From the NCBI GenBank assembly GCA_026127935.1, contig JAJSLL010000017.1:1-38197 (forward strand): a DNA stretch of 38,197 bases, given 5' to 3'. Each line of letters starts with the position of its first letter. Positions within the stretch are counted from its first letter, which is position 1. This DNA is from Thermoplasmatales archaeon (lineage in GTDB: Archaea; Thermoplasmatota; Thermoplasmata; Thermoplasmatales; GCA-001856825). Positions 14,214-38,197 of the stretch are shown piece by piece. The notes below the pieces were generated by a model. The model did no database searches. It saw only the letters and a list, made by a program, of their open reading frames with translations, and was not told where the DNA came from. A program made the position numbers and the translations under genes.

Positions 14214-14217
14214 GCAA

Positions 14218-14442: not shown

Positions 14443-14474
14443 GATATATACATATAGTATACGTATATAAACTT
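14443..14474 (-). promoter_or_regulatory. vapBC2 promoter/operator
   Basis: On the minus strand GTTTATATACG sits about 26 bases before the ATG, giving a leaderless promoter. The 10-bp palindrome TATACGTATA and a run of alternating T/A steps overlap it, a likely autoregulatory operator. Confidence 0.5.
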
Positions 14475-16025: not shown

Positions 16026-16034
16026 GATATGCAA

Positions 16035-18480: not shown

Positions 18481-18482
18481 AT

Positions 18483-23194: not shown

Positions 23195-23675
23195 ATTCCT
23201 CTCTCCAGTGAGGCTCCATCGTCCTTTCGAAGGCGGTTCAGGTATTACCTACGGAGGGGCCATTCCGCTATTTGCTGGGGTTGATTTGAGAGCAATATAT
23301 TATCTTTTCTTGCCTAAAACAACCTTCTTTAAGGCGTTAGCAAACTTCTTCTCCCCCTTTCGTCGAAAATTTCATTGAATAGGTCTTCTCCCTAGTTGGT
23401 ACCTTTGGGTCTTCCTTGAATGACTTTAAACGTTTATTCTCTGTTGCTCAGCCTCTCTGCCTGTTTTCTATATAAAAGCAGGGACACTACTAAGAAATAC
23501 ATACAGGTGGACCAGAAGGGCGTGCTGGAGGCCATGTTGGAGAAGAAGTCGGCTTTTTTCTGGCGGAGGCGAACCTGCTATGAATCCCACGCCCCGAACG
23601 GGAGGTTAATATCCATCCCCAGCCGGATTTGATTGATGAGGTGAATTTGGTGGATTTGAGCGAGGTGCTTTAGTG
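23195..23675. other. Intergenic boundary region: hyf-like operon promoter, repeat core E and element edge
   Basis: These 481 bases separate the chromosomal operon (leftward) from the integrated element (rightward). On the minus strand a TATA-like GATAATATATTG (about 23297-23308) lies about 100 bases before the hyfC-like ATG. A hyphenated palindrome AGGTA-T-TACCT near 23240-23250 lies between them and could be an operator. On the plus strand CTATATAAAAGC (23468-23479) is a good TATA box with no start codon until 23676, leaving a leader of about 175 bases that contains repeat core E. A 70-codon frame (23420-23632) is not convincing as a gene. Confidence 0.45.
23589..23618 (+). repeat. Hairpin core of the dispersed repeat, copy E
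   Basis: ACGCCCCGAACGGG is identical to the core of copy C (14728-14741), again on the plus strand. The preceding bases do not align convincingly with copies A-D, so only the core is claimed. Its position at the left edge of the integrated element is notable. Confidence 0.4.
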
Positions 23676-24023
23676 ATGGGCGGCTTAGATATTCTCACCG
23701 TTCCTGACTACCAGAAGCGCCTGGACATCCTCTCGGTGATAACTCCGTTCAGGCCGGGGATGTTTATTTCTGCCAACCAGGAGGAGATCCTGAGACTATG
23801 TGAAGGACAGCTGGAGATTGCGGAGGATGAGCTGAGAAGGTGGGCGGAAAGGCACTCTGAAGACGGGACCTCTGAAGTGAAATGCAGGACCGTTGGGGCA
23901 AATCCTCTCACGGTCAAGATCCTGGAAGTGAAGGATCCGGAGCAGGAGATCATCGAGAGCAATTTCAGGGATAGGAAGCAGAGACAGAGGAGATGGCAGC
24001 GGGAAAGGAGGTTATTGGAATGA
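23676..24023 (+). CDS. Unknown small soluble protein, first gene of the integrated element
   Basis: A 115-residue protein starting at ATG 23676 (a GTG lies just ahead at 23673). The N-terminal half is mildly hydrophobic (LDILTVPDYQKRLDILSVIT). The C-terminus is strongly charged with a run of Arg/Gln/Lys (FRDRKQRQRRWQRERRLLE), suggesting a helical nucleic-acid or protein contact. No family is recognised. It is plus strand like all genes to its right and, unlike genes on its left, uses many GC-ending codons and AGG arginines, so it belongs to the element. It ends just before the palindromic repeat array. Confidence 0.65.
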   Translation: MGGLDILTVPDYQKRLDILSVITPFRPGMFISANQEEILRLCEGQLEIAEDELRRWAERHSEDGTSEVKCRTVGANPLTVKILEVKDPEQEIIESNFRDRKQRQRRWQRERRLLE

Positions 24024-24030
24024 ATCAAAA

Positions 24031-24232
24031 TTTTACGTACGTACGTCTCATGAGCCTTCTTCCCTCAATGCCATGCTCTGGAGAATCAATATTACAGGGC
24101 TTCTACAAACACGGTAAGAATTTTACGGCCGTAACACTTTTGGACAACCACGTACGTGGCGTTTTCCGGGCCTTGAAAAATGGCCTCTATTTTATTTTTT
24201 TAAGAATTTTACGTACGTACGGTACGTACGTT
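24031..24232. repeat. Array of ACGTACGT-type palindromes (possible origin or operator)
   Basis: Four palindromic sites lie in 200 bases: TTTTACGTACGTACGT (24031-24046), TTTTACGGCCGTAA (24121-24134), CCACGTACGTGG (24148-24159) and a double site starting TTTTACGTACGTACGG, then TACGTACGT (24207-24232). The three sites preceded by AATTTT are about 86-90 bases apart. An AT-rich stretch (24187-24210) adjoins the last one. Such spaced palindromes are typical of iteron origins or multi-operator control regions. The first operon of the element begins immediately after. Confidence 0.65.
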
Positions 24233-24238
24233 CCATTC

Positions 24239-24269
24239 ATGATAGAGATAGAGAGAGATAGAGAGAGAA
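24239..24269 (+). repeat. GATAGAGA purine microsatellite
   Basis: A run built of GATAGAGA/GAGA units (GATAGAGATAGAGAGAGATA and so on) occupies about 30 bases directly before the SD of the next gene. It is a short tandem repeat in the leader and could vary in length by slippage. Confidence 0.6.
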
Positions 24270-24284
24270 TGGGAGGTGAAAGGG

Positions 24285-25163
24285 GTGCCCAATAGGATGA
24301 AGATAAGGACGGAGTACAAGGATACGAGAGGGTCCATGCACCTGACACCGAGGGAATGGGTTAAGGCCCTCATTCCCAAGGATGCGGACACTACGAACCT
24401 GTTCGAGAATTTCATATTGGCAGTGTATGGGTCCGGAGAAAAGAAGATAGAGGACATCAAGTCAGAGATCACGAGGACAGAGGGTGAGCTTGCAAGGATA
24501 CAGGGCAGACTTATAGACCTGAAGAGGAAGCTGGAGGACCAGGAGAGGGAGAACGAGAAGCTTGAGCAGATAAGGAGCGAGGTGGAGATGAATCTCCACT
24601 ATGCAAGGTATGTATTCCTCCGGGAGGTACTGTCTGGTCCGGTAATATCGAAACAGAAGGCAATCAAGATCGCATACGGAGTAGAGGCAACGGGCGAGAT
24701 ACTGGCGTGGGCCACAATGGTAAGGAAGAAGTTCCTTTCCAATGAGCTGGGAGAAGAGATGCAGAGGAAGGACACGGAGCCGCTCCTGAAATATCTGAAG
24801 GAGCACTTCGTGGAAGCGTATCCCGGAATAAGCTACGTGGGAAGAGGGGAAAAGGAGAAAGCAGCAAAGCAGGAATTCCTCGATGTGATGAGCGAATCTA
24901 AGAGGCTGTGCTCAAGGGGACATGTCTACAGCTCCCTCGAGAACAAGTGCCCGGAATGCTTGAGGTTAAATCGCAATCCCGAAGACTACATCCTAGCAAA
25001 CGTTCCATCAATATACATCAGGTTCGTCAACCAGGAGTTCGAGGGCTATTTCAGTGACCTCATCCTGTCAGAGGCCTTCAAGAAACTTGACGGGAAACTT
25101 GAACTGGATGGACCCAGAGAAACGAAAGCGATAGCCTCGGGAACTGGAAGGGTGAAAGCTTGA
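24285..25163 (+). CDS. Coiled-coil and zinc-ribbon protein, first gene of the element's first operon
   Basis: A roughly 292-residue protein of unknown function. Residues about 55-100 form a long charged heptad region (ITRTEGELARIQGRLIDLKR, LEDQERENEKLEQIRSEVE), a likely coiled coil. Near residue 210 a zinc-ribbon-like LCSRGHVYSSLENKCPEC supplies C-x3-H and CxxC ligands. The GTG at 24285 is chosen because SD GGAGGTGA (24272-24279) is correctly spaced from it; ATG 24297 is too far. The combination suggests a DNA-binding or scaffold protein, possibly the partner of the upstream palindromes, but this is inference. It overlaps the next small gene. Confidence 0.7.
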   Translation: MPNRMKIRTEYKDTRGSMHLTPREWVKALIPKDADTTNLFENFILAVYGSGEKKIEDIKSEITRTEGELARIQGRLIDLKRKLEDQERENEKLEQIRSEVEMNLHYARYVFLREVLSGPVISKQKAIKIAYGVEATGEILAWATMVRKKFLSNELGEEMQRKDTEPLLKYLKEHFVEAYPGISYVGRGEKEKAAKQEFLDVMSESKRLCSRGHVYSSLENKCPECLRLNRNPEDYILANVPSIYIRFVNQEFEGYFSDLILSEAFKKLDGKLELDGPRETKAIASGTGRVKA

Positions 25164-25300
25164 GGTCCCAATCAGACGACAGGGAGGCAAGGAGCCTCCT
25201 GGCTCCCAAGATCCTGGAAGCCGGTTTTGAGATAGTATCTTTCAGGGGGATAGACGAGGGGGACTACTGGATCCATGTACGGAAGGAGGCCCTAAAATGA
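25160..25300 (+). CDS. Small unknown protein, 46 codons
   Basis: A short frame starting with TTG at 25160 overlaps the previous stop (TTGA) and runs to TGA at 25298-25300, where it overlaps the next ATG. The product reads REARSLLAPKILEAGFEIVS, then FRGIDEGDYWIHVRKEALK. Its composition and AGG/CTC codon choice match the neighbouring genes, and it fills an otherwise unexplained 133-base gap exactly. It is soluble with an alpha/beta look. Function is unknown. Confidence 0.55.
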   Translation: MRSQSDDREARSLLAPKILEAGFEIVSFRGIDEGDYWIHVRKEALK

Positions 25301-25509
25301 TGCAGCTCTCATTGCTGGAAATAAAGCCCGTTATAACACCAGAGGAGATAGAATCTAAGGAAAAGGGGCTCCAGCGGTTGAAGAAGGCCTATTCCATACA
25401 GAAAGGAATAGCAAAGACAGCGAATGGCAGGGAAGCTTTTAACGCTGCGGTCCTGGCAAATCACCTGAAGACGGAAATTGAGAAAATGGAGAAGGAGTGG
25501 ATCAGATGA
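25297..25509 (+). CDS. Small helical unknown protein
   Basis: A 70-residue protein (MMQLSLLEIKPVITPEEIES to EIEKMEKEWIR), almost wholly helical and charged. It may be a coiled-coil or DNA-binding accessory protein. It overlaps the frames on both sides (ATGA junctions), so it is part of one translationally coupled operon. No family is recognised. Confidence 0.65.
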   Translation: MMQLSLLEIKPVITPEEIESKEKGLQRLKKAYSIQKGIAKTANGREAFNAAVLANHLKTEIEKMEKEWIR

Positions 25510-25664
25510 AGTTCGTTTCTATAGTCTCCTCAGTCTACATTTTCTCCTCTGGCATGTCATCATATTTCTGCCCGCAACTCTTCGTTCCCTTGACCTTCTC
25601 CTATGTATTCAGCATCGGTGGATACGAGGTTTCCAGCTACATTCAGGGGAGGTTGGCGAAATGA
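25506..25664 (+). CDS. Small hydrophobic unknown protein, 52 codons
   Basis: ATG at 25506 overlaps the previous stop and the frame runs to TGA at 25662-25664, overlapping the next ATG at 25661. The product (MKFVSIVSSVYIFSSGMSSY, then FCPQLFVPLTFSYVFSIGGY) is aromatic- and serine-rich and moderately hydrophobic, possibly a small membrane protein. Coupled junctions on both sides are the main support. Confidence 0.5.
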   Translation: MKFVSIVSSVYIFSSGMSSYFCPQLFVPLTFSYVFSIGGYEVSSYIQGRLAK

Positions 25665-25876
25665 CGTCTTCGGTGAGGATCGTTTTCACCAATGGCAGAT
25701 CCATAAAACGAAAGATAATCGGCCAGAGATTATCGTGGCTGATAGTGAAGGGGAAGCGCAGGAAGGTCTACTACCCCATTCACCAGATCAGGACCATCAA
25801 TTACCGGACCGTTGATGATTTCGGGTTCACGCCTGGGACTATGGAAATGGAGGCATTGGTTTGGAACAGTCTCTGA
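25661..25876 (+). CDS. Small basic beta-rich unknown protein
   Basis: A 71-residue protein starting MTSSVRIVFTNGRSIKRKII at ATG 25661; a longer frame opens at 25478 but that part overlaps two other genes. Alternating hydrophobic and basic strands (LSWLIVKGKRRKVYYPIHQI) suggest a small beta-barrel nucleic-acid binder. It is coupled to both neighbours. No family is recognised. Confidence 0.6.
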   Translation: MTSSVRIVFTNGRSIKRKIIGQRLSWLIVKGKRRKVYYPIHQIRTINYRTVDDFGFTPGTMEMEALVWNSL

Positions 25877-26127
25877 TGACCAGGTCGATCGAGGAAATTG
25901 ACATCAGGGAGGAGATTGAAGCTTTTCCCGGAAACATCTTTTCTGCCAGGAAAATCAGGCGCAGAATAATTGACAAATACGGGTTGTCCTTGGACCAGCA
26001 TCAGGAACATTCTCTGGGCAGGAGGGTAGGAGACATTCTATCACGAATGAGCGATGAAGGAAGGTTGTCTGTATACCTTCGCAGCGATTCGAGGCATCCA
26101 ATCAGGTATATCCGCAAGAGGAGATGA
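25876..26127 (+). CDS. Possible winged-helix DNA-binding protein
   Basis: An 83-residue basic protein starting at ATG 25876, which overlaps the previous TGA; a TTG start at 25861 is less likely. The pattern IREEIEAFPGNIFSARKIRR then LGRRVGDILSRMSDEGRLSV followed by RHPIRYIRKRR fits a winged-helix fold: helices, a recognition helix, then a two-strand wing. It may regulate the element's promoters. It is the last gene of the first operon, followed by a strong hairpin. Confidence 0.55.
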   Translation: MTRSIEEIDIREEIEAFPGNIFSARKIRRRIIDKYGLSLDQHQEHSLGRRVGDILSRMSDEGRLSVYLRSDSRHPIRYIRKRR

Positions 26128-26170
26128 GCCCGATTCATCAAATAGTCGAATCATATAATTACTCTGATTA

Positions 26171-26203
26171 GCCTTCGAGAGAAGAGGGAACGCTCTCGAA
26201 GGC
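26171..26203 (+). terminator. Strong 11-bp hairpin between the two operons
   Basis: GCCTTCGAGAG (26171-26181) pairs perfectly with CTCTCGAAGGC (26193-26203) around an 11-base loop. A pyrimidine-rich TCCTCTTCTTTCTC follows, so it may end the first operon. A TATA-like CATATAATTA (about 26151-26160) lies just upstream. If used, it would place the hairpin at the 5' end of the surface-protein mRNA instead. Confidence 0.6.
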
Positions 26204-26243
26204 TCCTCTTCTTTCTCGGGCTTGTCGGGAAAAGAAAAACCAT

Positions 26244-28820
26244 ATGTCTAACAAAAAGAATTTGGTAAAGTTTTTGACGCTGGCAGTCCTGTTTGTAATG
26301 GTTGCCACGATCGGTATGGGAACGATGGCTTCAGCGCAGCCATCGAACACTGAGCTGAGCCTTCCATTCATCAGCAACCCAGCGAATATGGCGCTAAACG
26401 TGACCCTCAGCCAGATATCGTACATAACGCAGCCAACGCAGTGGCTCTATTCAGGCAACGACCACCAGAAGGCCTATTATACAAACTCAACGGCCTGGGT
26501 CGTCCCAAATTCCGGAGACCTCTTCATCGCAAACAACTCAACCACGTCAACAGCCCCAACTGATTCAGCGATAAATTTCCCTGTGGCTAATTCGCTGGGA
26601 TCTCCCATCAATTACATATTCGGCGATTCAAGGCTTTCATTCAATGGAACAGGGGAAACGGCTTACTACATGATCTCCGAAGGGAATCAAACAGCTCCAC
26701 CAAGCGTGAGCGGCAATGTGCTGAAAGCATCTGCCGGTACAACCCAGAACGTCATCGATGTGATCATATCAGAGCACAATGCAACCACTTCTACAGTCAG
26801 CGTAGGCTACTTCGCCGATTCTGACAGCGGGGCTTACCAGAACTACACCACGTACTCGTTCTCCAGCCTCTACATCAACGCCCTGCAGTGGTACGACTTC
26901 ATGATCTACGTCCAGGGCTCTGGAACGGTCGTTTCAGTGATGAACGCAACTGGATCTATTCTTGCATCCTCTTCGACCCTGACTCCCGTCCTGGACGGAA
27001 ATTATTCCAAGATCACGACGGTCAGCTACATATCAGCTGAAGCCGCAACCACGAAAGGAGACATGCTCATCCTCGATTATTCGTACTTGGTGGACCGCAA
27101 CACGTACCAGACCTCAGCTCCGTCTGCTCCATTGGCTGGAGCGATAGGGGAGACAATAGGACCTGCCGCGCCATTTGACCCTGGAGCATCAGTAGCCGGA
27201 AATTATACTCAGGCCTCAAACTCCTCGAATGACTATCTCTCGACGAACATCAGTTTGGCATCCTTCAGCAGCGTGACAAACTCTTCAACGGTTGCATCGG
27301 AAAACAGCGGACTCATCAATGTGTCCCTGGAGACTCAGACGAATGACACTATAGCCTTGTCTCCCTCAACTCTAACCGACGTGAGGACGGCATCATACCT
27401 CCCCGCCACAGTCACAACGAACCTGTACGTCACGACGTGGACGTCTGCAGGAATAAACGCATCCATCATGAATTTCCTGCAGAGCATGATCGGATCCATA
27501 ATAAGCGTGGATCCAGCCGAAGTCAATGTGGTAGGGTATGCAGTCACGTCGATGGGGTTGGACATAACTCTCTCAAACACTACTATGACAGAGGTCAGCA
27601 ACTATCTTGACAATGCAATACCGGGAATACTAAATTCCAATGGCCTCGCCCTAGAGGACTCACAAACCGGAGCGATACAGGCGGGAGCGATGGCGGGATA
27701 CTTCATGACACCCAGCGGACCCGAAGCACCGATAGTCAATGGCCACCTGATAGAAAACCCCTTCACGGGAGCAGTCTATGCATCGATCGCACAGGCGGGA
27801 TTCTCCACGGGATCATACGTCTTCGAGGGAGCGATAGTTGTGCCCCAGTGGGAGTTCCTTGGATTCGCAGCGGATGGCCAGCCCATATTCGGTAACGTAC
27901 CTCTTGCGTGGAATCCATTTGCTGCCCTCAACGGAGCAGCATCTTCAGTCAGAAACTTCTTCCACAGTGCAGCTACAACTGTTAGCAATTCCTTGAATAC
28001 CGTGAAGGCCACAATATCACCTGCAGCATCGAAGATAGTCAATGTGGCTGGTGGCAGACTAGGAACCGCAATCCGGAACGCGGCAACGGACATACAGAAA
28101 TCAGCTAGCAGCGTGATGCCCACATTCGCAGGAGCGATCGGATCGGTCGGTAAATCCATAAGCGGCACCATAAGTCATGCAGTTACAGGAGTCCAATCCG
28201 GACTGGCTGACGTCAAGTCATCTGTCACAGGCGCAGTCCTGGCAGGGGTCAGCACCGTGAAACAGGGAATATCAAACATAGGGACGAGCGTCAAATCGGG
28301 CATCTCCGGGATCTCATCGAACATGGGCGGAGGATTCAAAAGATTCGGGAATGCGATCTACACGACCCTCGGCACGGTAGGCACCACAGTGAATAACGTG
28401 ATCTCCCCAATAGTGAACACGGTCAGGAACCTGCCGACCGCCATCGCGAACGGAACGCAGTCACTTGTGAAGGGTGCATCCAGCCTTGGACAGAGCATAG
28501 CCTCAGATGCGTCAAACCTAGGAATAGCAATCAAGAACGGCACAATGAACGCACTCGACACAATCGGGAACACGATAACGGGAGCAGGGAAGGAAATACA
28601 GAACGCATTCGGCAATATTTCGACCGAAATGATGGGCGCACTGAAAAGTCCGTTCTCGTTCATGATGGGTCTCAGCAACAACGTGGCTCACATAATCGAG
28701 TACGCTGGAATAGGAGTGGTGGTGCTCGTCCTAGTAATCGTCGGAGTCTACGTTTTCAGCCACAACGAGAAACACAGAAAGAGCAGAAAGCAGGTAAAGA
28801 GCGCGCAAAGGAAGAAGTGA
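26244..28820 (+). CDS. Large secreted, membrane-anchored surface protein (858 aa)
   Basis: An 858-residue protein with a clear signal peptide (MSNKKNLVKFLTLAVLFVMV to about ASA-32), one C-terminal membrane span (VVVLVLVIVGVYVFS, near residue 830) and a basic cytoplasmic tail (HRKSRKQVKSAQRKK). The first 540 residues are Ser/Thr/Asn-rich, beta-like, with many N-x-S/T sequons. Residues about 565-800 are a long Ala/Gly/Ser/Val-rich amphipathic stretch with repeating short units (VKSGISGISS, VTGAVLAGVS), like phasin or tape-measure proteins. The topology is that of a viral envelope spike or cell-surface adhesin. There is no known homologue by eye. It opens the element's second operon. Confidence 0.78.
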   Translation: MSNKKNLVKFLTLAVLFVMVATIGMGTMASAQPSNTELSLPFISNPANMALNVTLSQISYITQPTQWLYSGNDHQKAYYTNSTAWVVPNSGDLFIANNSTTSTAPTDSAINFPVANSLGSPINYIFGDSRLSFNGTGETAYYMISEGNQTAPPSVSGNVLKASAGTTQNVIDVIISEHNATTSTVSVGYFADSDSGAYQNYTTYSFSSLYINALQWYDFMIYVQGSGTVVSVMNATGSILASSSTLTPVLDGNYSKITTVSYISAEAATTKGDMLILDYSYLVDRNTYQTSAPSAPLAGAIGETIGPAAPFDPGASVAGNYTQASNSSNDYLSTNISLASFSSVTNSSTVASENSGLINVSLETQTNDTIALSPSTLTDVRTASYLPATVTTNLYVTTWTSAGINASIMNFLQSMIGSIISVDPAEVNVVGYAVTSMGLDITLSNTTMTEVSNYLDNAIPGILNSNGLALEDSQTGAIQAGAMAGYFMTPSGPEAPIVNGHLIENPFTGAVYASIAQAGFSTGSYVFEGAIVVPQWEFLGFAADGQPIFGNVPLAWNPFAALNGAASSVRNFFHSAATTVSNSLNTVKATISPAASKIVNVAGGRLGTAIRNAATDIQKSASSVMPTFAGAIGSVGKSISGTISHAVTGVQSGLADVKSSVTGAVLAGVSTVKQGISNIGTSVKSGISGISSNMGGGFKRFGNAIYTTLGTVGTTVNNVISPIVNTVRNLPTAIANGTQSLVKGASSLGQSIASDASNLGIAIKNGTMNALDTIGNTITGAGKEIQNAFGNISTEMMGALKSPFSFMMGLSNNVAHIIEYAGIGVVVLVLVIVGVYVFSHNEKHRKSRKQVKSAQRKK

Positions 28821-28824
28821 TCCT

Positions 28825-29049
28825 ATGACAAAAGTGACAGTAAGGGACTACGCAAAAACGGACGGAACCCACGTGAAGAGGCACACCAGGAATGACCCCC
28901 GGGCGGGGGGGTCTTCCGAGGAGCTCAACCCCGAGGACAAATACGAAGTGGAGGCAACGGTCACTGGAGAAATGGACAGCAAGGGAAAACTGGAGGATAC
29001 CAAGGTGACAGAGGTTAAACTCAAACCCAAAGAGAAGACGGGTGATTGA
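28825..29049 (+). CDS. Small charged unknown protein
   Basis: A 74-residue hydrophilic protein 4 bases after the surface-protein gene. The opening VTVRDYAKTDGTHVKRHTRN followed by DPRAGG resembles the short 'VxxHxRxxP' motif seen in small DNA- or peptide-binding proteins of mobile elements. The second half alternates acidic and basic residues. It is probably soluble and inside the cell or particle. Function is unknown. Confidence 0.6.
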   Translation: MTKVTVRDYAKTDGTHVKRHTRNDPRAGGSSEELNPEDKYEVEATVTGEMDSKGKLEDTKVTEVKLKPKEKTGD

Positions 29050-29070
29050 ACGGCCCAAAAGAATGGGGGA

Positions 29071-29256
29071 ATGAACATCGGCGCAATGATCCTTGTCCTG
29101 GTTGTTCTTCTTGCAATAGAGGGCGTGATAGATGTCTTTGGTCTCCCATTCGATGAGATCCTCGTCCCGGGGGAAATGATCGGCGACGTGCTGCTGATGA
29201 TCCTTATGGCTCTTTTTTCCGGTATATCTGGTCCGGGACCAAGGAGGCTCCAATGA
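29071..29256 (+). CDS. Small membrane protein, 61 aa
   Basis: Two hydrophobic segments (MILVLVVLLAIEGVIDVFGL and IGDVLLMILMALFSGI) surround an acidic loop. A GGGGGA SD-like run precedes the ATG. It overlaps the next small membrane-protein gene by four bases (ATGA). Candidates are a minor envelope protein or a holin-like protein; the sequence does not decide. Confidence 0.6.
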   Translation: MNIGAMILVLVVLLAIEGVIDVFGLPFDEILVPGEMIGDVLLMILMALFSGISGPGPRRLQ

Positions 29257-29450
29257 ACAGGATCGCACTCGGGATACTGATACTCATAGCCCTGGAGCTT
29301 GCATCAGACGTATTCATTGTCCTTTATCTCGGAGGATGGAGCCTGCTTGTCCTGCCTTTCGTGATATCCATCCAGGTGGTCTTTGATTTCATCCTCCTGG
29401 CGATGATCGGATTTGCTTCTTACTCCAGGAAGACGAGAGTGATCCAGTGA
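29253..29450 (+). CDS. Small membrane protein, 65 aa
   Basis: It has two hydrophobic spans (ALGILILIALELASDVFIVL and LLVLPFVISIQVVFDFILLA) and a basic C-terminus (SRKTRVIQ). It resembles the preceding gene in layout (IALELASDVF versus LAIEGVIDVF), so the pair may be an old duplication. It is coupled to both neighbours. Confidence 0.6.
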   Translation: MNRIALGILILIALELASDVFIVLYLGGWSLLVLPFVISIQVVFDFILLAMIGFASYSRKTRVIQ

Positions 29451-30319
29451 TGTGGCCCTTCAACGATGAGGAGAAATCACCAAGGCTCGGAGTGCTAAGT
29501 CCCCTGGACGTGGAGATCCACGATTCCGTTGGGGGCTGGACCCACTTCGGAAGGCCGGAGATGTTCAGGAAGGACGTCTCGAAGGAGAAGGGAAGCATCT
29601 TTTTTTACCGCATCCTCACCAAGTACAGGGAAGACGAGAAGGTCATAGTGACCACTCAGGACTTCATCCACATCGCGGACCAGATTCCCTACACTCAGAC
29701 AAGAAAAGGGAAGGGGAGGCTTTTCCAGATATTCCTGCTCACCTTCCTCGGGATCTACGGCCTCACCCTCTGGATGATGGGGGTGATGATCCAGGCAGGG
29801 CCGAGCATCATATTCTACCAGACGCAGGTGACAGGGCTGGAGATGGACGTGGCGGATGTAGCAATCGCCTTTGCGGCCATAGCAGGGTCATGGGCCTGGG
29901 CCGCACGGTACCATCATTACGTATCGGACTGGGAGATACAGCCCCTCAGGATCAACTCCCTCAAGAGCAGCACCGACTTCTACATCCTCACAAACTCATC
30001 GAAGGCTCCAGTATGGGAGGAGATGCTGAGGCTGAAGGACGTAGCAACTGCTGACATAGACAAGCTCGTAGATGCCGTGAGGCTGTTCGAAAAGAGGGAG
30101 ATTGACAGACTGCAGGAGAGCAACACAGACCTAGCGGGCGAACTTCAGGACGTCCACAACGGGGCATTCACCTATGGCGCTCTGGCTTTGGACGCGGGAA
30201 CTGTGACCAAGATCGAGAAGAGCAGGAGCATGCCAGACAGGACGAGGACGTTCTTCATCGTTGGAGTTGCAATTGCGGCTACCTTCGTTGCATCCTTCCT
30301 CATCTTCGTGGTGGGATGA
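29450..30319 (+). CDS. Unknown membrane protein, 289 aa
   Basis: The ATG at 29450 shares a base with the previous TGA. The N-terminal 95 residues are soluble (TTQDFIHIADQIPYTQTRKG). Two spans follow near residues 98-155 (FQIFLLTFLGIYGLTLWMMG, VAIAFAAIAGSWAWAA). A cytoplasmic helical region with LVDAVRLFEKREIDRLQESN comes next, and a last span (FFIVGVAIAATFVASFLIFV) closes the protein. The layout suggests a membrane platform that could recruit the ATPase three genes downstream. No family is recognised. Confidence 0.62.
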   Translation: MWPFNDEEKSPRLGVLSPLDVEIHDSVGGWTHFGRPEMFRKDVSKEKGSIFFYRILTKYREDEKVIVTTQDFIHIADQIPYTQTRKGKGRLFQIFLLTFLGIYGLTLWMMGVMIQAGPSIIFYQTQVTGLEMDVADVAIAFAAIAGSWAWAARYHHYVSDWEIQPLRINSLKSSTDFYILTNSSKAPVWEEMLRLKDVATADIDKLVDAVRLFEKREIDRLQESNTDLAGELQDVHNGAFTYGALALDAGTVTKIEKSRSMPDRTRTFFIVGVAIAATFVASFLIFVVG

Positions 30320-30612
30320 TGGACTATTCTTTTCTCCTTTTATTCTTGGCAATAGTTTTGGCGGTTGCAGTGATTTATCTGACTATTTTGATGCTCAAGA
30401 GATGGTACGTCACATTCTCACCAAAGGAGACCGCTTTTTTTGGATTGATTATGTTCAGCATAGGCTGGGTGCTGGAAGCCTATCTCGTAGGCAATGCTGC
30501 TGGAGTTCTTGAAGGGTCGGTCATAGACTTCCTGTTCTTTGGCCTATTCATCTATCGCTGGAATAAGCGCAGGATAGTGCGCAAAACCAAGAAGGAGGCA
30601 GGCATTCTATGA
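30316..30612 (+). CDS. Small membrane protein, 98 aa
   Basis: Three hydrophobic segments (FLLLFLAIVLAVAVIYLTIL, TAFFGLIMFSIGWVLEAYLV, DFLFFGLFIYRW) are followed by a strongly basic tail (NKRRIVRKTKKEAGIL). It overlaps both neighbours by four bases. It is probably a minor membrane component of the particle or a conjugation-like channel. Function is unknown. Confidence 0.6.
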   Translation: MMDYSFLLLFLAIVLAVAVIYLTILMLKRWYVTFSPKETAFFGLIMFSIGWVLEAYLVGNAAGVLEGSVIDFLFFGLFIYRWNKRRIVRKTKKEAGIL

Positions 30613-31145
30613 CTGGCGGGCCTGAGGACAATAGGCTCAACACCACCAGGGTGGATGAGCTTAAAATAGAGTGGTGGAAGAAGAATACAATGGCCATCTC
30701 ACGTGACGTCCTTGACCTCAGCGGATACCTTACCAGCTATTCCGAAAAGGAGGTCGTTGTGATCAAAGATGGCAAATTCGAAACCGCCAAGGTGGGAGAG
30801 ACCAAGGACGTCGAGCTCAGGTTTGCAATCCCTGCCGAGAAGAAGGATTACAACGAACTCCGTGTCTACCTGAATTTCTACGAATGGAAGAAACTCACAC
30901 TGAATTCGTATGACGTCAGGATCCTGGAGCTACAAAAGAGCGGGAAGATCGAAAAGGTCAAGCGCCAGATGATGGAAAAGGAGCTCTGTAAGCACCCGCT
31001 TCCAGGGTGGGACCGCTGGTTCAACGGTCTTCTCGACACTCTCGCGCTGAAGGCGACGGAGATGGCATATTCCGAAATGAGGCAAATGCCAGACCGCAGG
31101 TGGTTTCGCATTTATGACCAGGAGCGTGAATTGAACAATGAGTGA
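30609..31145 (+). CDS. Unknown soluble protein, 178 aa
   Basis: A soluble alpha/beta protein. The middle has strands (EKEVVVIKDGKFETAKVGET, KDVELRFAIPAEKKDYNELR) and the C-terminus is helical with many aromatic and basic residues (GWDRWFNGLLDTLALKATEM, MPDRRWFRIYDQE). It is coupled by overlap to the genes on both sides. No family or catalytic motif is seen. Confidence 0.6.
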   Translation: MTGGPEDNRLNTTRVDELKIEWWKKNTMAISRDVLDLSGYLTSYSEKEVVVIKDGKFETAKVGETKDVELRFAIPAEKKDYNELRVYLNFYEWKKLTLNSYDVRILELQKSGKIEKVKRQMMEKELCKHPLPGWDRWFNGLLDTLALKATEMAYSEMRQMPDRRWFRIYDQERELNNE

Positions 31146-31551
31146 CGATGGAGCGAATGGAACGGTAAAGGGGATAGGCCATGGAGCAACGCTTCACACG
31201 GCGTTAGAATGGGTCCTGAGGGAAACGGCAAATGGGACCAGGCTTGAAGAGAACGACTACCCGAACGTCTGGAATTATACAATGCTCGCTGAGGCATACG
31301 CAGAATACATGCAGAACCCGCTGGCGCCCGAGCAGGCACTTCAGAAGTTCATGGATAAGACGAACGACATGGACAAGAAATACGGGGGAAAGAAATTTCA
31401 CAGGATGTCGAGGGAAGAGGCATGGGAGCGTTCTTACGCTGCGCTTCTCTATTTCACTTATCTTGGAGCTCACCAGCTGCAGAAGGAAGAACAGCAGTGG
31501 AGCGACGATGAGTTGGTCAGGACGGAAAGGGAGGAGTCAAATGCTAGATGA
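31138..31551 (+). CDS. Unknown soluble helical protein, 137 aa
   Basis: A mostly helical, charged protein (NVWNYTMLAEAYAEYMQNPL, REEAWERSYAALLYFTYLGA). Its ATG overlaps the previous stop by eight bases, and its end overlaps the ATPase gene by 11 bases. This tight coupling to the ATPase suggests a direct partner, for example a regulatory or adaptor subunit, but there is no sequence match to support it. Confidence 0.6.
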   Translation: MSDDGANGTVKGIGHGATLHTALEWVLRETANGTRLEENDYPNVWNYTMLAEAYAEYMQNPLAPEQALQKFMDKTNDMDKKYGGKKFHRMSREEAWERSYAALLYFTYLGAHQLQKEEQQWSDDELVRTEREESNAR

Positions 31552-32638
31552 TGAGATGGCGGACGCGACAAACGCACTCTCCAAGGACATCGAAGAGGAC
31601 TGGGAGGTTTCCCCAGCAGCTGCTATCAAGATGACAACCGATTATTTGGAGATCCTGGGATCCGTGAAAAATGAAAAGGCCTTCGTCTCAGGATTCAACA
31701 CCGGAAGAAACGAGAAGAGAGAACGGGAAGAGGCAGTCAAGTTCTGGCTCGATACTGTGTTTTTCAGAAGGGACCTCCCAGTGGTGATCAGGGCGAGGAA
31801 CGGAAGGGGGAAGACATACCTTCTCACCTGGCTTCTGTTGAGGACCAAGATAATGAGACCTGATGGGGATTTCCTAACGAACATCCCCTGGTTCTGGGAA
31901 ACAGATCCCAAGGTGAAGCCTCTCGCAATGCCCAACTTCTACAACATAAACAAGATGAGCGATATGCTCAGGAGATCTTCTGAGACAGTCCTGGAAGGAA
32001 GGACCCCGTATGTAATAATTGATGAGATGGACAATGCTGTGAGCTCGCAGGATTTCACCGGAGGAAGGGGAGGACCCTTTGCCAGCTGGAAACAGTTCAC
32101 GTACATCAAGAGGCACCTGAAGATGAAGGGACCACTCCTGGCATATCACAGCGTAAATGACATCCCCAATTATATGCGAAGCAGACAGGTCGTTGCTGAC
32201 ATCCTCAAGGTGTACGTTCACGGAGGGGAGCGATACGTTTTTTCGAAAGCCACAAGACCATATCGTTTGAAAGTTGGTGGCGATTTCGTTATCTATTCAA
32301 AGAATGGATTCAATGATTTCGAGATTGACGTGGACATGAGGAAGCTGAGAGTCAGCATAGGAAAGACCGGCACGCCTGCCGAGTCTGCAAGGAAGATATT
32401 GGCCAACCTGGATTCTTGCACATATGACGCTTACGAGAAGAGAAAGGAAGAATTCGACAAGGGAGAAATGTACAAAGACATTTGCGAGATGAAAGCTGAG
32501 GGACAGACGTACAGGGAAATCCAGGAGAAGATGAAGATCTCCGCAGCCACGGTGAAGAAGGCGCTCGAGTGGTGTGAGAAGCAGCAGAGCATGAAGGGAA
32601 GCAAGGAAAACGATGAGGGGGACGATGAAATTGAGTGA
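31541..32638 (+). CDS. P-loop ATPase (FtsK/HerA/Zot-like) with C-terminal helix-turn-helix
   Basis: A 365-residue ATPase starting at ATG 31541, with SD GGGAGG nine bases before; the open frame extends further upstream but overlaps other genes. Walker A is the variant ARNGRGKT (residues 85-92), with Ala in place of the first Gly. Walker B is YVIIDEMD (Asp161/Glu162). Then FTYIKRHLKMKGPLLAYHS followed by NDIPNYMRSR matches the late-strand/arginine region of FtsK-HerA-type DNA-pumping ATPases. The last 60 residues hold a helix-turn-helix (AEGQTYREIQEKMKISAATV). The best guess is a genome-packaging or DNA-translocation ATPase of a virus-like element. Confidence 0.7.
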   Translation: MLDDEMADATNALSKDIEEDWEVSPAAAIKMTTDYLEILGSVKNEKAFVSGFNTGRNEKREREEAVKFWLDTVFFRRDLPVVIRARNGRGKTYLLTWLLLRTKIMRPDGDFLTNIPWFWETDPKVKPLAMPNFYNINKMSDMLRRSSETVLEGRTPYVIIDEMDNAVSSQDFTGGRGGPFASWKQFTYIKRHLKMKGPLLAYHSVNDIPNYMRSRQVVADILKVYVHGGERYVFSKATRPYRLKVGGDFVIYSKNGFNDFEIDVDMRKLRVSIGKTGTPAESARKILANLDSCTYDAYEKRKEEFDKGEMYKDICEMKAEGQTYREIQEKMKISAATVKKALEWCEKQQSMKGSKENDEGDDEIE

Positions 32639-32658
32639 TGCTTCTCGCTTTCCTCTGG

Positions 32659-32701
32659 CGCGCGAAACTCATGTATATATGACTAACGCGCGAAGGAGGT
32701 G
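32659..32701 (+). promoter_or_regulatory. Promoter with flanking CGCGCGAA repeats and strong SD
   Basis: The TATA-like TGTATATATGA (32672-32682) is flanked by direct repeats CGCGCGAA at 32659-32666 and 32687-32694. The second repeat runs into the SD AGGAGGTG (32694-32701) of the protease gene. This marks a separate transcription unit for the protease and large spike. Confidence 0.5.
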
Positions 32702-32706
32702 GTCTC

Positions 32707-33666
32707 GTGTCGGCTGACTGGATGGCCTACGTTCTCCCTTCTCTTTTCTCTTTTTCTTTTGTCCTGGTCTACGTGAGGATATTCAGGTTGATCAAGAAGG
32801 CTCCTCGAACGATAGAGATGTTGACCGGGTCCATTCCAATATCGATTACCGCAGTGATCTTAGAATCATACTTGTTCAATTATCTTGGAACGCTCCTTGG
32901 CCTCCTCGTTGCTGCTCCGGTCCTAGAAGAAGCTCTGAAATTTGCAGGAACGGCACGAAAGAGAGACGTCAGTTCTGGACTTGGAGTGGGACTTGGGTTT
33001 GCGTTCACTGAGAACTTGCTTTATTTCCACGCTTTCCTTTCCGGATATTCCATCTCTTCCATCGTGTCAGTTTCTTTCATTTCTTCACAGGTCTTCCTCT
33101 TCGTAGCCATGAGGGGGTCTTTTGACCCGTTGCTGCATGCGACCCTGACCGGCCTTTCAGTCAGGACCTGGCAGAAAGACAAGCGCTTTTGGCTGCCTAT
33201 AGCCATAGGATTTCACGTTGCGTACAACTTCGTCGCTGTTTTAGGCATGACCAATATTCCGTTTCTGGTCGCTGCAGATGTAGCGGTTCTTGGACCCGCA
33301 TTGTTCCTGCTCCTGAGAAAGGCCAGGACAAGCATTCAGACGGTATCGCCGAAAATTACGACGGAATCAAAACAAAGGACCGATAAGGTGAAGCCCCAAG
33401 TCCAGGTCGACGTAAGGAAGCTCGGAATTGATAATCTTGCAGCATGGGTGAGAGCCAGCTCAAGGGCAATCGGATTTCAGGGAATCACCAAGGCGATAGG
33501 ACTCGAGCTTTCTGATCGTTATGAAAGAACGATGTGGATTAGGAGATCCTTGACTGTATCAAATGGAAGAAAGATCACATACACGGAAATCGGACCTTAT
33601 GGAGCTCTCCTTGTTACAGCTCTTGCAGCCCTGGGGGGGATTGCCGTATGGGTGCTGTTCCTGTGA
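32707..33666 (+). CDS. PrsW-like intramembrane protease
   Basis: A 319-residue protein whose first 205 residues form a bundle of about seven spans carrying the PrsW/CAAX-protease-like catalytic set. These are Glu74-Glu75 with Lys78 (APVLEEALKFAG), Glu102-Asn103 (GFAFTENLLYF), His144 (LLHATLTGLS) and His170 with Asn174 (GFHVAYNF). A soluble domain (about 210-300) and a last span follow. These proteases cut membrane-bound substrates. The gene starts with GTG 32707 behind a strong SD. Its position 29 bases before a giant membrane-anchored surface protein suggests that protein, or host anti-sigma/surface proteins, as substrate. Confidence 0.8.
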   Translation: MSADWMAYVLPSLFSFSFVLVYVRIFRLIKKAPRTIEMLTGSIPISITAVILESYLFNYLGTLLGLLVAAPVLEEALKFAGTARKRDVSSGLGVGLGFAFTENLLYFHAFLSGYSISSIVSVSFISSQVFLFVAMRGSFDPLLHATLTGLSVRTWQKDKRFWLPIAIGFHVAYNFVAVLGMTNIPFLVAADVAVLGPALFLLLRKARTSIQTVSPKITTESKQRTDKVKPQVQVDVRKLGIDNLAAWVRASSRAIGFQGITKAIGLELSDRYERTMWIRRSLTVSNGRKITYTEIGPYGALLVTALAALGGIAVWVLFL

Positions 33667-33695
33667 CCTCGCTTCGTGCAAGAAAAGGAAGAAGA

Positions 33696-36600
33696 ATGAA
33701 AAAACTCCGGTTAATCTTGATCCTGTTGATTCTAATTCTTACTATTTTTTCATCTTTCAACTTTGCACTTCAACCAGCCGTTGCAAGTCCCCCAGCAACG
33801 GGAGACATAGCATGGGCAAATGCCACGGCGAGTTATACCGGAGTGTCAAAATGGCAACAGCAACCTACTACAAACCTAAAGATATGGGCTAACAACAATT
33901 CTACGGCTTCCCCTCTAAGCCTTCCCTTCCCGAGTGGTTCGTATATGACACCTTGGATGTCGAGTCAGAGGTTATCGGCTACTTATCCGTTAAATAATTA
34001 TACATACAACGGGACGGTCGATGCAAGAGTCAACGGTCAATTTGAATCTGATATGCCTACTAATGGCGGCAATGCCTATGACAGCCTTGGCACTATCTGG
34101 GCTAATATAACGGCGAGCGGTTCGCTATATAGCTGGTCGTATAGATTCAATTTCAAGGGTACAGATCTCTACGATAGGCCTCTATTTGCGCCGGAATGGA
34201 ATGTAACGGCGGGTTCCTTGGTTACGAAACTCAATATAACCTTGACACCTTACGACAGCACGGGTTTTAGCGGCAACTCAATGAACAACCCATGGACAAT
34301 ATGGCATCAGAATATAGGCGTAAACGAGATATTGGATAGTAGAGATTTCAATTCCAGTACTGTAGTACCTTTAAAAGATTTTGTCTATGGTTGGAATTAT
34401 GCGTATAAGTCCATATCCTCGTCCTTCTCTCTCCCTTCAAATATCGCATCTTATACCCTAAATTGGACATCATCTCAAAGAACTAATGCAACCTACAACT
34501 CTCTAACTCAGTCAGGGGCTATAGGCGGACATTTCACCGGCTCTTTATCTATGACCTCCGTCACATTCCAAGCCGATTTTATGGACTTCAATCAGCAGTA
34601 TTATTCCATTTCCTATTTTCTCAATGAAAACACAACCTCAGCTATGGATGACGTTTACGGAGCAGAGGGGTATATTTACGGTATCTCGGAAAATGGGAAC
34701 TTCTTTAATTCTACTCCTATCTATTTCAATTATACCGTTCCGAGCGGAGCCTCTAATTCTTATTCTGTTTCATACAAGGTCACTATTAGCAACGTGACGT
34801 TGACAAATCCCAACGCTCCGGTCGAGGATTTCGGCCTAATCAATACCGATTTTACCGAGTATTCCGTCTCAAAATCAGGTAGTACCATTAACATAGTTGG
34901 CTATGTCAACTATTCAAGTGCGCAATCTACGAGCGTTAAATTTCAGACCTCAGAGTTAGCCAACTATTACCCTACTATTGTCAGTTCCTCCATAGGTTGG
35001 ACGGACACGGGCAGCGAGGCCGCCTTGACGGTCAATGCCGAGGACGTAGGCGGAGGCTATACATTCAGTTCCGAGACCATTCAGGTTATCAATATCAACT
35101 GGGGAGACGGCAGCCCATTGGGCTCCTCGGCCGTTGAGACCGGAGCCTATGACTGGACGTTCTATCATTACTACTCGAGTCCGGGGAGCTATACAGTGAG
35201 CTTTCAGGTCGTCAACAGGCCTGGTCTGGCAGGGTCGCTGTCTAGCCAGGCTTCCGGAAGCTACGTAATCACGACCACTATAACTACAGGGCCGACTGAC
35301 AACTCATATTTGGCCTCGGGTCAAAAAATCTATTTCAACTATTCCGGAGCCGCCGCAGGCCTCACATCCTTGACGCTTCAGATTAACGGGATTGCGCAAT
35401 TCACAGACTCGTTCCAGTCGCTGCTGACGAGCGGCACTTCTTATACCCCGACATACAAGGGACAGCTCAATGTCACCTGGGAGTGGGCAGCGGGGAATAT
35501 CACGGGAACAGTCTCACTGACCTACCAGACGACAATCTACATCTCCCCGCAGGCGCTGTATGTCCTTGTCAACTATACTTATGGCGGAGTCCGCTACTCC
35601 AATTTCGTTCCCTGGTCAGGGTCGCCGATAGGGTACAACCTGACATACTCATACTACACATGGAGTTACAATCTCCCGGGGGAGAGCACGGGCGTCACAA
35701 TAGAGGGGAGCACGTCTTGGACCTTCGTTCTTGCTAGCCCGGGAGATGTCACTTTCTACCCTGCCAACGCAACTGCAGACTTCCACATCTCCCAGACGGA
35801 CTTCGTCAGCATAACGTTCCTGGCGAAGGACCCTCCCCAGCCGGCATCTTTCCAGATCACCTACTATCCGACGAGCGCGATCTACAACTTCTTCGGGGCT
35901 GCCCTCAGCTTCAGCGACCTGCACACCTACGTGGACGGCCAGCTCCTCCATACCGACTTCATCAATGCGCAGGTCGGCAGCACGTACTCGATAAAGGCTT
36001 ATGACCTAGTCGGAGACCTGGTTGTGAACACAACCTATTACGTCCAGTACCAGACGAGTTTCGATGACATACCCGTTGCAATCTGGCCCATCACGATATC
36101 CAACCAGAACTCCACCTATGAGCTGGGCCTTGACGTGAGCACTCATGGATTCTCCCAGCCCTTTCCTTACATCGGGCCCTCAGGGACGGCCACGTCCGGC
36201 TATACAATATGGATACTGAGCGGCAGCTACTACTTCAACTTCACCTACGTGAACACGCAGACATATGCGGTCTACCAGACGGTGCCTCTGCTCAGGACAG
36301 TCACAGGTCCATCGTTCATCAACATACAGGGGGTGACACTCTCGCAGCTCCAGGTCACGCAGCAACGCAACGCTCAGAACTATACCAACCTCGTGGAGCA
36401 GGTGAATATCACGTTTGCCAATGAGTATTCAAAAATCTACAATGAGACCTTGGGAGTAAATGTCAACGTTAATAACGTCAATGTCTCCGTCAATCACGTA
36501 CTCGTAGAGATGCTTACCAACGTCTCTTTTATCAAGAGCTACGTCTTGAACTTGAATAACACCATGAGTTCAGATTTCACGGTCACAAACGATATTATCA

Positions 36601-37877
36601 AGTCGTTCCAATCGAATCTTACGGTATTGACTACCTACGTGAATAATACCGTCAGTTATATCAAAACTCTTGAGACTTCTATCAACCAGAACCTTACGAT
36701 TCAATACGGGATAGTGAACGAGACGCTGTTCATTTCCAAGCAGAATTTTACAGCGCTGGGCTCTTCCATTAAGAGCAACTTTGACACGCTAGTGGCGTCT
36801 CAGGATTTCCAGGACTCCCTTGTAAACCTCACAATCTCTGATGTCAGGACCGGGTTCACCTACAGCAACGACCTGATCAATAATACGGCTACAAATCTCA
36901 TAGCTCAGGACAATCTAATCAATGATACAATCAACTCGATAAAGTCTCTTGATATTCAGTTCAATTCTAATCTTAGCCTCGTGAATGCCTCCATCAGCGA
37001 GTTGTCCATACTATCAAAGCAACGGTCGGTTTATCTCAACTCTACAATCGCCAACGATTATGACTCGATGCTTAACAACGTTACCCTTGTCTATTCCTAC
37101 GTCAAAGGTATGAATGTTACCCAACTCGACTATCTTGCAGCCCTTTCAAGCGCAGTCCATAGCATACAAAACAACGTCACAGTAACGAACAGTTACATCA
37201 ACGATACGGTCACCCGGGTGGATACATATATGACAACAATTGAGAACAGCATCCTGGACAACATCACTTACAGCACACTCAACGTCACCACCAGGATCAA
37301 TACCGTGAAGAACCTGGTATCGCTCAGCCTCCAGGACCAGAACGCGACCCTGAGCTACAAGCTGCTGTTCGGCACTCCCCAGATCCTCAACGGTTCCACC
37401 TACAGGTTCCCCGTGTTCGTGGAATCCCTGAACGGCGAGCTCGCAAACCTGTCAGTGACAAGACAGGCTGCCGCCAATCTTACCCTCTACTATATCTCGG
37501 GCAACAGCACCCATTACCTCAATTTCACGACAGGGAGCGTAAAGGCCGGGAGCTTCGAACTGTACATCACCAACCTGAACAGTTCCGATGCAAACTACAT
37601 TAGGGGGAACGAGGCAATAGTCCAGGGGAAGAGCGACATAGGCGCGGGATCCGTAGGCAACCTGGCAGTCGGCATTGCAGGGAGTTCGCAGCTCAATGGG
37701 GCAACAGCCTATCCGGGCTACAATTTCAATTCGATCCAGGGAATAGTGGCCTTTCTGGGAAACCTTGAGCAGACCACCAGCGGAAGAGCTCTCTATCTGA
37801 TAACAGGTCTGGTGGCTCTCGTGTACTACATTACTGTCCTAACCAGGAAGAACGAGAAGAAGGCGAAGAAGAAATGA
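33696..37877 (+). CDS. Giant spike-like surface protein (1,393 aa) with PKD domain and heptad stalk
   Basis: A 1,393-residue protein. The start is ATG 33696, where the signal peptide MKKLRLILILLILILTIF begins; codons before it are leader. The mature part has Tyr/Ser/Thr/Asn-rich beta structure with dense N-x-S/T sequons (about 35-440). A PKD-type domain (INWGDGS...HYYSSPGSYTVSF, near 465-505) follows, then further beta domains to about 895. A 300-residue heptad-rich stalk comes next (e.g. LSKQRSVYLNSTIANDYDSM, about 900-1210), then a compact C-terminal domain. One membrane span (ALYLITGLVALVYYITVL) and a basic tail (KNEKKAKKK) end the protein. It is an adhesin or viral spike. Base composition changes several times along the gene. 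Confidence 0.8.
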   Translation: MKKLRLILILLILILTIFSSFNFALQPAVASPPATGDIAWANATASYTGVSKWQQQPTTNLKIWANNNSTASPLSLPFPSGSYMTPWMSSQRLSATYPLNNYTYNGTVDARVNGQFESDMPTNGGNAYDSLGTIWANITASGSLYSWSYRFNFKGTDLYDRPLFAPEWNVTAGSLVTKLNITLTPYDSTGFSGNSMNNPWTIWHQNIGVNEILDSRDFNSSTVVPLKDFVYGWNYAYKSISSSFSLPSNIASYTLNWTSSQRTNATYNSLTQSGAIGGHFTGSLSMTSVTFQADFMDFNQQYYSISYFLNENTTSAMDDVYGAEGYIYGISENGNFFNSTPIYFNYTVPSGASNSYSVSYKVTISNVTLTNPNAPVEDFGLINTDFTEYSVSKSGSTINIVGYVNYSSAQSTSVKFQTSELANYYPTIVSSSIGWTDTGSEAALTVNAEDVGGGYTFSSETIQVININWGDGSPLGSSAVETGAYDWTFYHYYSSPGSYTVSFQVVNRPGLAGSLSSQASGSYVITTTITTGPTDNSYLASGQKIYFNYSGAAAGLTSLTLQINGIAQFTDSFQSLLTSGTSYTPTYKGQLNVTWEWAAGNITGTVSLTYQTTIYISPQALYVLVNYTYGGVRYSNFVPWSGSPIGYNLTYSYYTWSYNLPGESTGVTIEGSTSWTFVLASPGDVTFYPANATADFHISQTDFVSITFLAKDPPQPASFQITYYPTSAIYNFFGAALSFSDLHTYVDGQLLHTDFINAQVGSTYSIKAYDLVGDLVVNTTYYVQYQTSFDDIPVAIWPITISNQNSTYELGLDVSTHGFSQPFPYIGPSGTATSGYTIWILSGSYYFNFTYVNTQTYAVYQTVPLLRTVTGPSFINIQGVTLSQLQVTQQRNAQNYTNLVEQVNITFANEYSKIYNETLGVNVNVNNVNVSVNHVLVEMLTNVSFIKSYVLNLNNTMSSDFTVTNDIIKSFQSNLTVLTTYVNNTVSYIKTLETSINQNLTIQYGIVNETLFISKQNFTALGSSIKSNFDTLVASQDFQDSLVNLTISDVRTGFTYSNDLINNTATNLIAQDNLINDTINSIKSLDIQFNSNLSLVNASISELSILSKQRSVYLNSTIANDYDSMLNNVTLVYSYVKGMNVTQLDYLAALSSAVHSIQNNVTVTNSYINDTVTRVDTYMTTIENSILDNITYSTLNVTTRINTVKNLVSLSLQDQNATLSYKLLFGTPQILNGSTYRFPVFVESLNGELANLSVTRQAAANLTLYYISGNSTHYLNFTTGSVKAGSFELYITNLNSSDANYIRGNEAIVQGKSDIGAGSVGNLAVGIAGSSQLNGATAYPGYNFNSIQGIVAFLGNLEQTTSGRALYLITGLVALVYYITVLTRKNEKKAKKK

Positions 37878-37996
37878 ACAGGAATGAAAGGGAAAGAATG
37901 AGAAAGAAGATAGAGGATGCAAAAAGGGACAGGATCTTAGCGATTATGCGGTTCACCTATGGTAGCAAACACATCTCAGCTTCCACCCCTGCCTGA
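37874..37996 (+). CDS. Very small basic protein, 40 aa
   Basis: ATG 37874 overlaps the spike stop codon (ATGA). The frame reads MNRNERERMRKKIEDAKRDR, then ILAIMRFTYGSKHISASTPA, to TGA 37994-37996. The first half is a highly charged helix and the end is unlike a fold. Translational coupling and AGG/AGA-rich codons support it, but its tail may already be non-coding. Confidence 0.45.
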   Translation: MNRNERERMRKKIEDAKRDRILAIMRFTYGSKHISASTPA

Positions 37997-38197
37997 TTTT
38001 AATTTTAAATGAAGCGTGAATTTAAAGAGTGGCTAAATTGAGGGATCCTGATCAGCTCCAAACATGGTGTACTTTTATCCTTAAAAGTTCATCGAACCAC
38101 CCGCTTTACTTAAAAACGAAGGGCTGAAATTGATTCAGAGATAGTCAAAATGATGAACTTTTAAATAAAAGTTTAAATTGAACATGCATGGAAGAGC
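37997..38197. other. AT-rich non-coding right end with a 13-bp inverted repeat
   Basis: No gene is seen in the last 200 bases. TTAAAAGTTCATC (38081-38093) is exactly inverted as GATGAACTTTTAA (38152-38164). Each arm also sits in a smaller palindrome (ACTTTT-ATCCTT-AAAAGT and AACTTTT-AAAT-AAAAGTT). This may be a control region or the terminus of the element. Confidence 0.45.

Follow-up and report, generated by a model that had tools for sequence, protein, structure and literature searches.

A mobile genetic element occupies the right-hand part of the window (the 38,197 bp stretch of archaeal DNA analysed here), from 23.6 to 38.2 kb, as shown by an integrase, att sequences at a tRNA gene and an uninterrupted target site in related genomes. 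We consider it probable that this element is the provirus of a non-lytic membrane-enveloped virus, or less likely a plasmid passed on in vesicles, that works in a pleolipovirus-like manner and stands outside that family. The provirus reading is based on the att sites and integrase, the uninterrupted site, a conserved gene order, a patchy distribution, gene trees, an ATPase resembling Zot and VP8, and a layout like that of pleolipoviruses.

The window is an entire contig (C23) of a draft genome of 1.58 Mb in 33 contigs. GC content steps from ~0.42 to ~0.50 at 23.4 kb, and to the right of this step the likely genes between 23673 and 37996 are 100% on the plus strand and closely packed. AGG makes up 0.52 of arginine codons in the element versus 0.33 in neighbouring host genes, and several element starts are preceded by purine-rich runs resembling Shine-Dalgarno (SD) sites. 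The gene list, codon counts and inspection of starts thus agree with the initial annotation, which had described a one-strand, tightly packed, AGG-rich block with SD sites at 23.7-38.0 kb. The block is real and its inventory was accurate, with edges that needed revision: the left edge lies at 23589, and the right edge lies beyond the contig. Because the window is a whole contig, the element runs past its right end. It measures at least 16.3 kb, comprising window 23589-38197 (14.6 kb) and positions 1 to ~1700 of contig C20, with a gap of unset length between the two contigs; their joint lies outside this single draft assembly and is drawn from synteny. Near the right end of the contig, an inverted repeat (38071-38093 and 38152-38172) may have caused the assembly break. 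The features are as follows.

23474..23588, plus strand: C-terminal remnant of a tyrosine recombinase (SRDTTKKYIQVDQ...), read in frame, ending at attL and outside the element
23589..23603, no strand: attL, ACGCCCCGAACGGGA, equal to the tRNA-Asp 3′ end (antisense), 15 bp
23673..24023, plus strand: P116, small soluble protein and first element gene, with homologues in G008 and G086, likewise at the element's left end
24024..24275, no strand: CGTACG palindrome array, 6 copies
24276..25163, plus strand: coiled-coil protein of 295 aa with a C-terminal Cys/His cluster
25297..25509, plus strand: 70-aa protein, homologue in G008
25497..25664, plus strand: 55-aa ORF, or piece of an overlapping 132-aa ORF (alternative frames); G008 match E 4.7e-24
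25861..26127, plus strand: 88-aa basic protein, ORF only with no family match, possibly DNA-binding
26244..28820, plus strand: FUS, 858-aa surface protein, homologues in 9 other genomes
28825..29049, plus strand: P74, small charged soluble protein, homologues in G167, G008, G006 and G005
29071..29256, plus strand: 61-aa protein with 2 transmembrane (TM) segments, corresponding to one half of a protein of ~155 aa with 4/5 TM segments in relatives
29253..29450, plus strand: 65-aa 2-TM protein, its position suggesting the other half of the ~155-aa protein
29447..30319, plus strand: P290, membrane protein with 2 TM segments, homologues in 9 other genomes
30316..30612, plus strand: 98-aa 3-TM protein, homologues in 7 other genomes
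30609..31145, plus strand: P178, soluble, homologues in 6 other genomes
31138..31551, plus strand: P137, soluble, just upstream of the ATPase and also found in elements without the membrane module
31541..32638, plus strand: P-loop ATPase with N-terminal helices, P-loop core and C-terminal helix-turn-helix (HTH)
32707..33666, plus strand: PrsW-family intramembrane metalloprotease, Pfam PF13367 E 2.5e-6
33648..37877, plus strand: SPIKE, 1409 aa, G008 homologue E 1e-232
37874..37996, plus strand: 40-aa ORF, the last in the window, the element going on at C20:1-1700

The attL 15-mer is matched exactly at C20:1682, the 3′ end of a tRNA-Asp gene, and was absent from 200/200 mononucleotide shuffles. 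It precedes the first element gene by 70 bp and has the same orientation as the tRNA-Asp 3′ end on C20; an att search restricted to the window had found nothing. A genome-wide search for tyrosine recombinases located one at the start of C20 (834-1733, plus strand, PF00589 E 1e-36), so the earlier statement that no integrase is recognised does not hold for the genome as a whole. The 3′ end of this integrase overlaps the tRNA-Asp gene (1683-1755, minus strand), and C20:1-1700 holds a DUF6015 protein, the integrase and attR. GC content on C20 is 0.52 in 1-1680 and 0.45 past tRNA-Asp, and the codon log-likelihood of element versus host is +60.8 for the integrase and -45.6 for the host genes that follow. 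The element is missing from this site in two related genomes. On a single G006 contig, tRNA-Asp stands between orthologues of window genes 433, 1847 and 10111 on one side and those of C20 genes 1777 and 2759 on the other; a single G004 contig likewise has tRNA-Asp with orthologues of window gene 11121 and C20 gene 1777. These uninterrupted sites reveal the target and, without recourse to the element itself, tie the window to C20. A nuoH-like flanking gene had no counterpart in the 10 genus-mates searched and was uninformative for an empty site. Taken together, the att sites at tRNA-Asp, the integrase and the relatives' intact target site bear out the original proposal of an integrated element.

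The recombinase remnant at 23474-23588 is what an earlier integration event left behind here; since it is the C-terminus of another integrase, the tRNA-Asp site seems to hold tandem insertions. G086 has comparable remnants upstream of P116: two successive tyrosine-recombinase C-termini (L071:5926-6470) directly precede the P116 homologue. A further copy of the tRNA-Asp 3′ end, a 19-mer at 14728, bounds a second att-delimited segment to the left of the element (14728-23588). Its genes encode an AAA/DUF4143 protein followed by proteins resembling a proton-pumping oxidoreductase (Proton_antipo_M, Complex1_49kDa, nuoH-like), and the segment is possibly an earlier island at tRNA-Asp. Just left of this first att copy, at 12779-14508, are the toxin-antitoxin pairs MazE/PIN and VapBC. 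In G004 a partial copy of the tRNA-Asp 3′ end was seen 0.8 kb off. Tyrosine-integrase-like genes also adjoin tRNA-Asp in G001 (L146:15324) and G009 (reverse complement of L149:6523), making this an integration hot spot of the genus.

The conserved part of the element was followed through samples of species genomes, from which all homologue counts are drawn. ATPase homologues occur in 4/10 genus-mates and in other families. FUS homologues were found in G008, G086, G125, G167, G276, G334, G362, G388 and G408, and the FUS module is sporadic (~10 of ~400 sampled genomes of the class Thermoplasmata). Public records for four FUS-bearing genomes, labelled as Thermoplasmata or metagenome bins, are JAKAUN010000012, JAKIVS010000027, JAKBKR010000149 and JAJZYX010000005. 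In the best kept copies the order is FUS, small TM protein, variable large surface protein, P290, spike C-terminus, TM98, P178, P137, ATPase and PrsW. This order is conserved across families while the flanking genes change from genome to genome; neighbours include other tyrosine integrases (G276, G388, G362), serine resolvases (G276, G086, G008), and N6-methylase/Eco57I-type and other restriction-modification genes. No clean empty site came from an MFS gene that flanks the element in G008. This gene is present in 11/11 genomes of the genus, and the element was seen beside it only in G008. Repeats were also noted in two relatives: an AGGATAT array at reversed positions 2200-2550 of the ATPase-bearing 8.6-kb contig C5 of G004 (L018, reverse strand), possibly that contig's own iterons, and dense GGGGAAC repeats at reversed ~18750-19050 of G388 contig C116 (reverse complement of L067+L068), possibly a CRISPR or tandem array.

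In gene trees the window joins G167, a member of another family (FUS 100/99, ATPase 96/94, P290 100/100). The genus-mate G008 is placed elsewhere in the FUS and ATPase trees and has a long branch of unsure position in the P290 tree. Transfer from family to family best accounts for this pattern. A host chromosomal operon was rejected because the block is patchily distributed and relatives show the site uninterrupted. The sporadic block, its varied flanks and the separation from the genus-mate in the FUS and ATPase trees exclude whole-block chromosomal synteny without mobility, the finding that the initial annotation had named as contrary to its proposal.

A hydrophobic segment at the N-terminus, a C-terminal TM anchor and a Lys/Arg-rich tail characterise both large surface proteins (858 and 1409 aa), as first described. 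FUS consists of a signal segment, a lectin-like beta-sandwich, a long amphipathic helical region, a TM segment and a basic tail. Its structural model is poor overall (pLDDT 43) and better for residues ~120-280 (~53-79); the best PDB matches of this low-confidence model are jelly rolls of legume lectins and glucanases, which makes a glycan-binding lectin-like head plausible only. Matches of FUS to tape-measure and baculovirus PEP proteins were set aside as low-complexity amphipathic helices of the long C-terminal helical region. SPIKE has a signal segment, 54 N-glycosylation sequons, a C-terminal TM segment and a basic tail, and other elements retain its C-terminal part as a ~240-aa gene. The four small or medium membrane proteins counted at the outset are present, with starts at 29071, 29253, 29447 and 30316; sequence homology of the 65-aa protein to the ~155-aa protein of relatives was undetected. 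The protease, likewise recognised earlier, scores 27.6 bits against a Pfam PF13367 cut-off of 23.5 and has the PrsW motifs EExxK, FxxTEN and DPLLH. All relatives retain EExxK and DPLLH (DPLVH in G388), and all except G008 retain FxxTEN or FxxSEN.

The ATPase starts near 31541/31556 rather than at the longest-ORF start of 31232. Profile evidence and a good AlphaFold model (pLDDT 81) with a helical N-domain, P-loop core and HTH substantiate the P-loop ATPase with HTH of the initial annotation; its 'DNA-pump' role is putative. Profile alignment with hhalign to eight pleolipovirus VP8 sequences gave 97-98% probability over at least 231 columns. Nine Zot/pI proteins, aligned as a control of comparable depth, reached 96.6-97.1% over 108-109 columns, which weakened the identification as VP8 only that the first values had suggested. 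The best viral fold match of the model is Zot, and its PDB matches are generic RecA-like folds and STIV2 B204. Taken one by one, the VP8 proteins scored from 1.5 to 91% against the ATPase, a scatter that makes single-sequence scores weak evidence, including those below 10% for the packaging ATPases PRD1 P9, SH1 ORF17 and STIV B164, likewise single sequences. Because the Zot/pI control scores close to VP8 and the best viral fold match is Zot, sequence comparison places the ATPase in a Zot/VP8-like group rather than with VP8 proper.

All CGTACG sites of the 38-kb window (6/6) fall within 24024-24275, where shuffles predict 0.03, so the palindrome array seen at first reading is far above expectation. 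At the same syntenic place in G008, between P116 and the next gene, is an unrelated array of 12 TGTAGTC/GACTACA copies in 260 bp. Unlike motifs at a like position would fit an iteron origin or an autoregulated operator, and we infer that the array is iteron-, origin- or operator-like. The 295-aa coiled-coil protein had no relative in the other element loci compared. Its slot in G008 is taken by a 567-aa protein (L016 5988-7691) that shows a P-loop-like motif, matches nothing in Pfam and is a candidate replication protein.

Pleolipoviridae and 'Thalassapleoviridae' (HRPV-1, His2, AvPV1) share with the element a one-strand operon, a spike, small TM proteins, a ~280-aa TM protein and a VP8-type ATPase; their genomes are 7-18 kb, they have no capsid, and the His2 ATPase has an HTH, as here. 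AvPV1, an active provirus of 17.9 kb, has its att in tRNA-Gly next to the integrase (PMC10919331), and so resembles the element in tRNA integration by a tyrosine integrase. The element differs in its PrsW protease, its very large second spike and the lectin-like N-terminal head predicted for FUS. A VP8-like NTPase was found (97-98%, with Zot similar on the core). Profiles of FUS, SPIKE, P290 and BIGS all scored below 1% against the VP4 spike; for VP3 the MTM family scored 0% and the TM98 family 1.8%, small multi-TM proteins being nonetheless present; and all module families fell below 1% for ORF6 and ORF7. With no homologue of VP3, VP4, ORF6 or ORF7 detected in the module, membership in Pleolipoviridae or 'Thalassapleoviridae' was rejected. 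The likeness to enveloped pleomorphic viruses originally proposed therefore stands for the Zot/VP8-like ATPase and the gene layout and does not extend to membership. In Inoviridae, the P-loop core of the Zot/pI assembly ATPase matches the element ATPase (~109 columns), whereas no filament coat, secretin or Zot C-terminal domain was recognised in the element, and its ATPase is soluble with an HTH. Pfam and PHROG scans of the element agree with the first reading in that no capsid, portal or large-terminase family matched; tape-measure and small-terminase matches were discarded as confined to helical or coiled-coil regions.

Counting against a provirus, no homologue of any known virion protein was found, no replication initiator is recognisable in the element, phage and plasmid collections gave no relative, and the elements of G005 and G006 contain P74, P137 and the ATPase with no surface or membrane module seen. 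IMG/VR scans with ATPase and FUS also gave no relatives. The G005 and G006 elements, from the same genus, have a ~670-aa P-loop-containing protein in lieu of the surface and membrane module. A tyrosine integrase of its own is present in the G006 element, which is flanked by a 13-bp repeat (14253 and 21838) that could be chance. Occurrence of the trio without a visible membrane module indicates that its role is separable from the envelope; to regard such elements as satellites is speculation.

The absence of a capsid or classical virion protein would also suit a vesicle-transmitted plasmid that loads itself into protein-studded membrane vesicles and has no defined virions, an explanation we regard as unlikely. 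Its model is pR1SE of Halorubrum, whose plasmid vesicles (apHPVs) resemble the element in uniting surface proteins, a protease and an ATPase in a plasmid-like, capsid-free plan; plasmid recruitment is the proposed role of its ORF25 ATPase (PMC10818511). By description, however, the published pR1SE core differs, with other core genes, a subtilisin-like protease rather than PrsW and a VirB4/packaging-like ATPase (PMC10818511). It is quite improbable that the membrane operon encodes an apparatus of the cell surface or for contact transfer, in which adhesins and a DNA pump pass DNA between cells without free particles: the lectin-like adhesin head predicted for FUS, the long anchored proteins and the HTH-bearing ATPase would suit such a role, but relaxase, VirD4/TraG and VirB4 matches are absent from the element proteins (Pfam, PHROGs and NCBIfam scans) and the ATPase groups with Zot/VP8. 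Very improbable is a genomic island carrying surface and ATPase genes as cargo that benefits the host and has no part in the island's transfer, for despite several islands at the tRNA-Asp site and restriction-modification genes in some related elements, the module keeps a fixed order over several families where cargo is variable.

These considerations favour the provirus, for which we propose the following model. The tyrosine integrase would recombine a circular form into the tRNA-Asp 3′ end, and the integrated block would carry one membrane-morphogenesis operon. FUS and SPIKE would be exported and held by their C-terminal TM anchors as surface spikes, the lectin-like head of one binding glycans, and might serve in fusion. 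The small TM proteins and P290 would make a membrane patch studded with protein, and the PrsW protease would process one of them. The Zot/VP8-like ATPase, with its DNA-binding HTH, would bring the genome to this patch or drive it in, whereupon the loaded patch would bud as a particle without lysis of the host. The CGTACG array would act as origin or operator.

We tentatively raise the further possibility of a new family of enveloped viruses of Thermoplasmata, with an attachment and fusion apparatus unrelated to VP4 (a lectin-headed FUS whose stalk is a long amphipathic helix, together with a giant spike) and a DNA-loading ATPase also found on smaller elements of the genus, which could be its satellites. 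Thermoplasmatales are without an S-layer (PMC12448462), and fusion of the pleolipovirus HRPV-6 is triggered by an S-layer component, according to a title cited in PMC10919331. The element group looks new relative to the phage, plasmid and viral-contig collections searched, and its host is an uncultured acid-mine archaeon. Nothing like this element was found for Thermoplasmata in the open-licence literature searched. To our knowledge, few viruses are known from the acid-loving Thermoplasmata. The att site, integrase and flanks offer PCR targets for excision and particle release. If confirmed, the element would represent a new enveloped virus type for an archaeal class with few known viruses; if true, it would provide a test of whether membrane-budding viruses had a single origin or were rebuilt around one DNA-handling ATPase.
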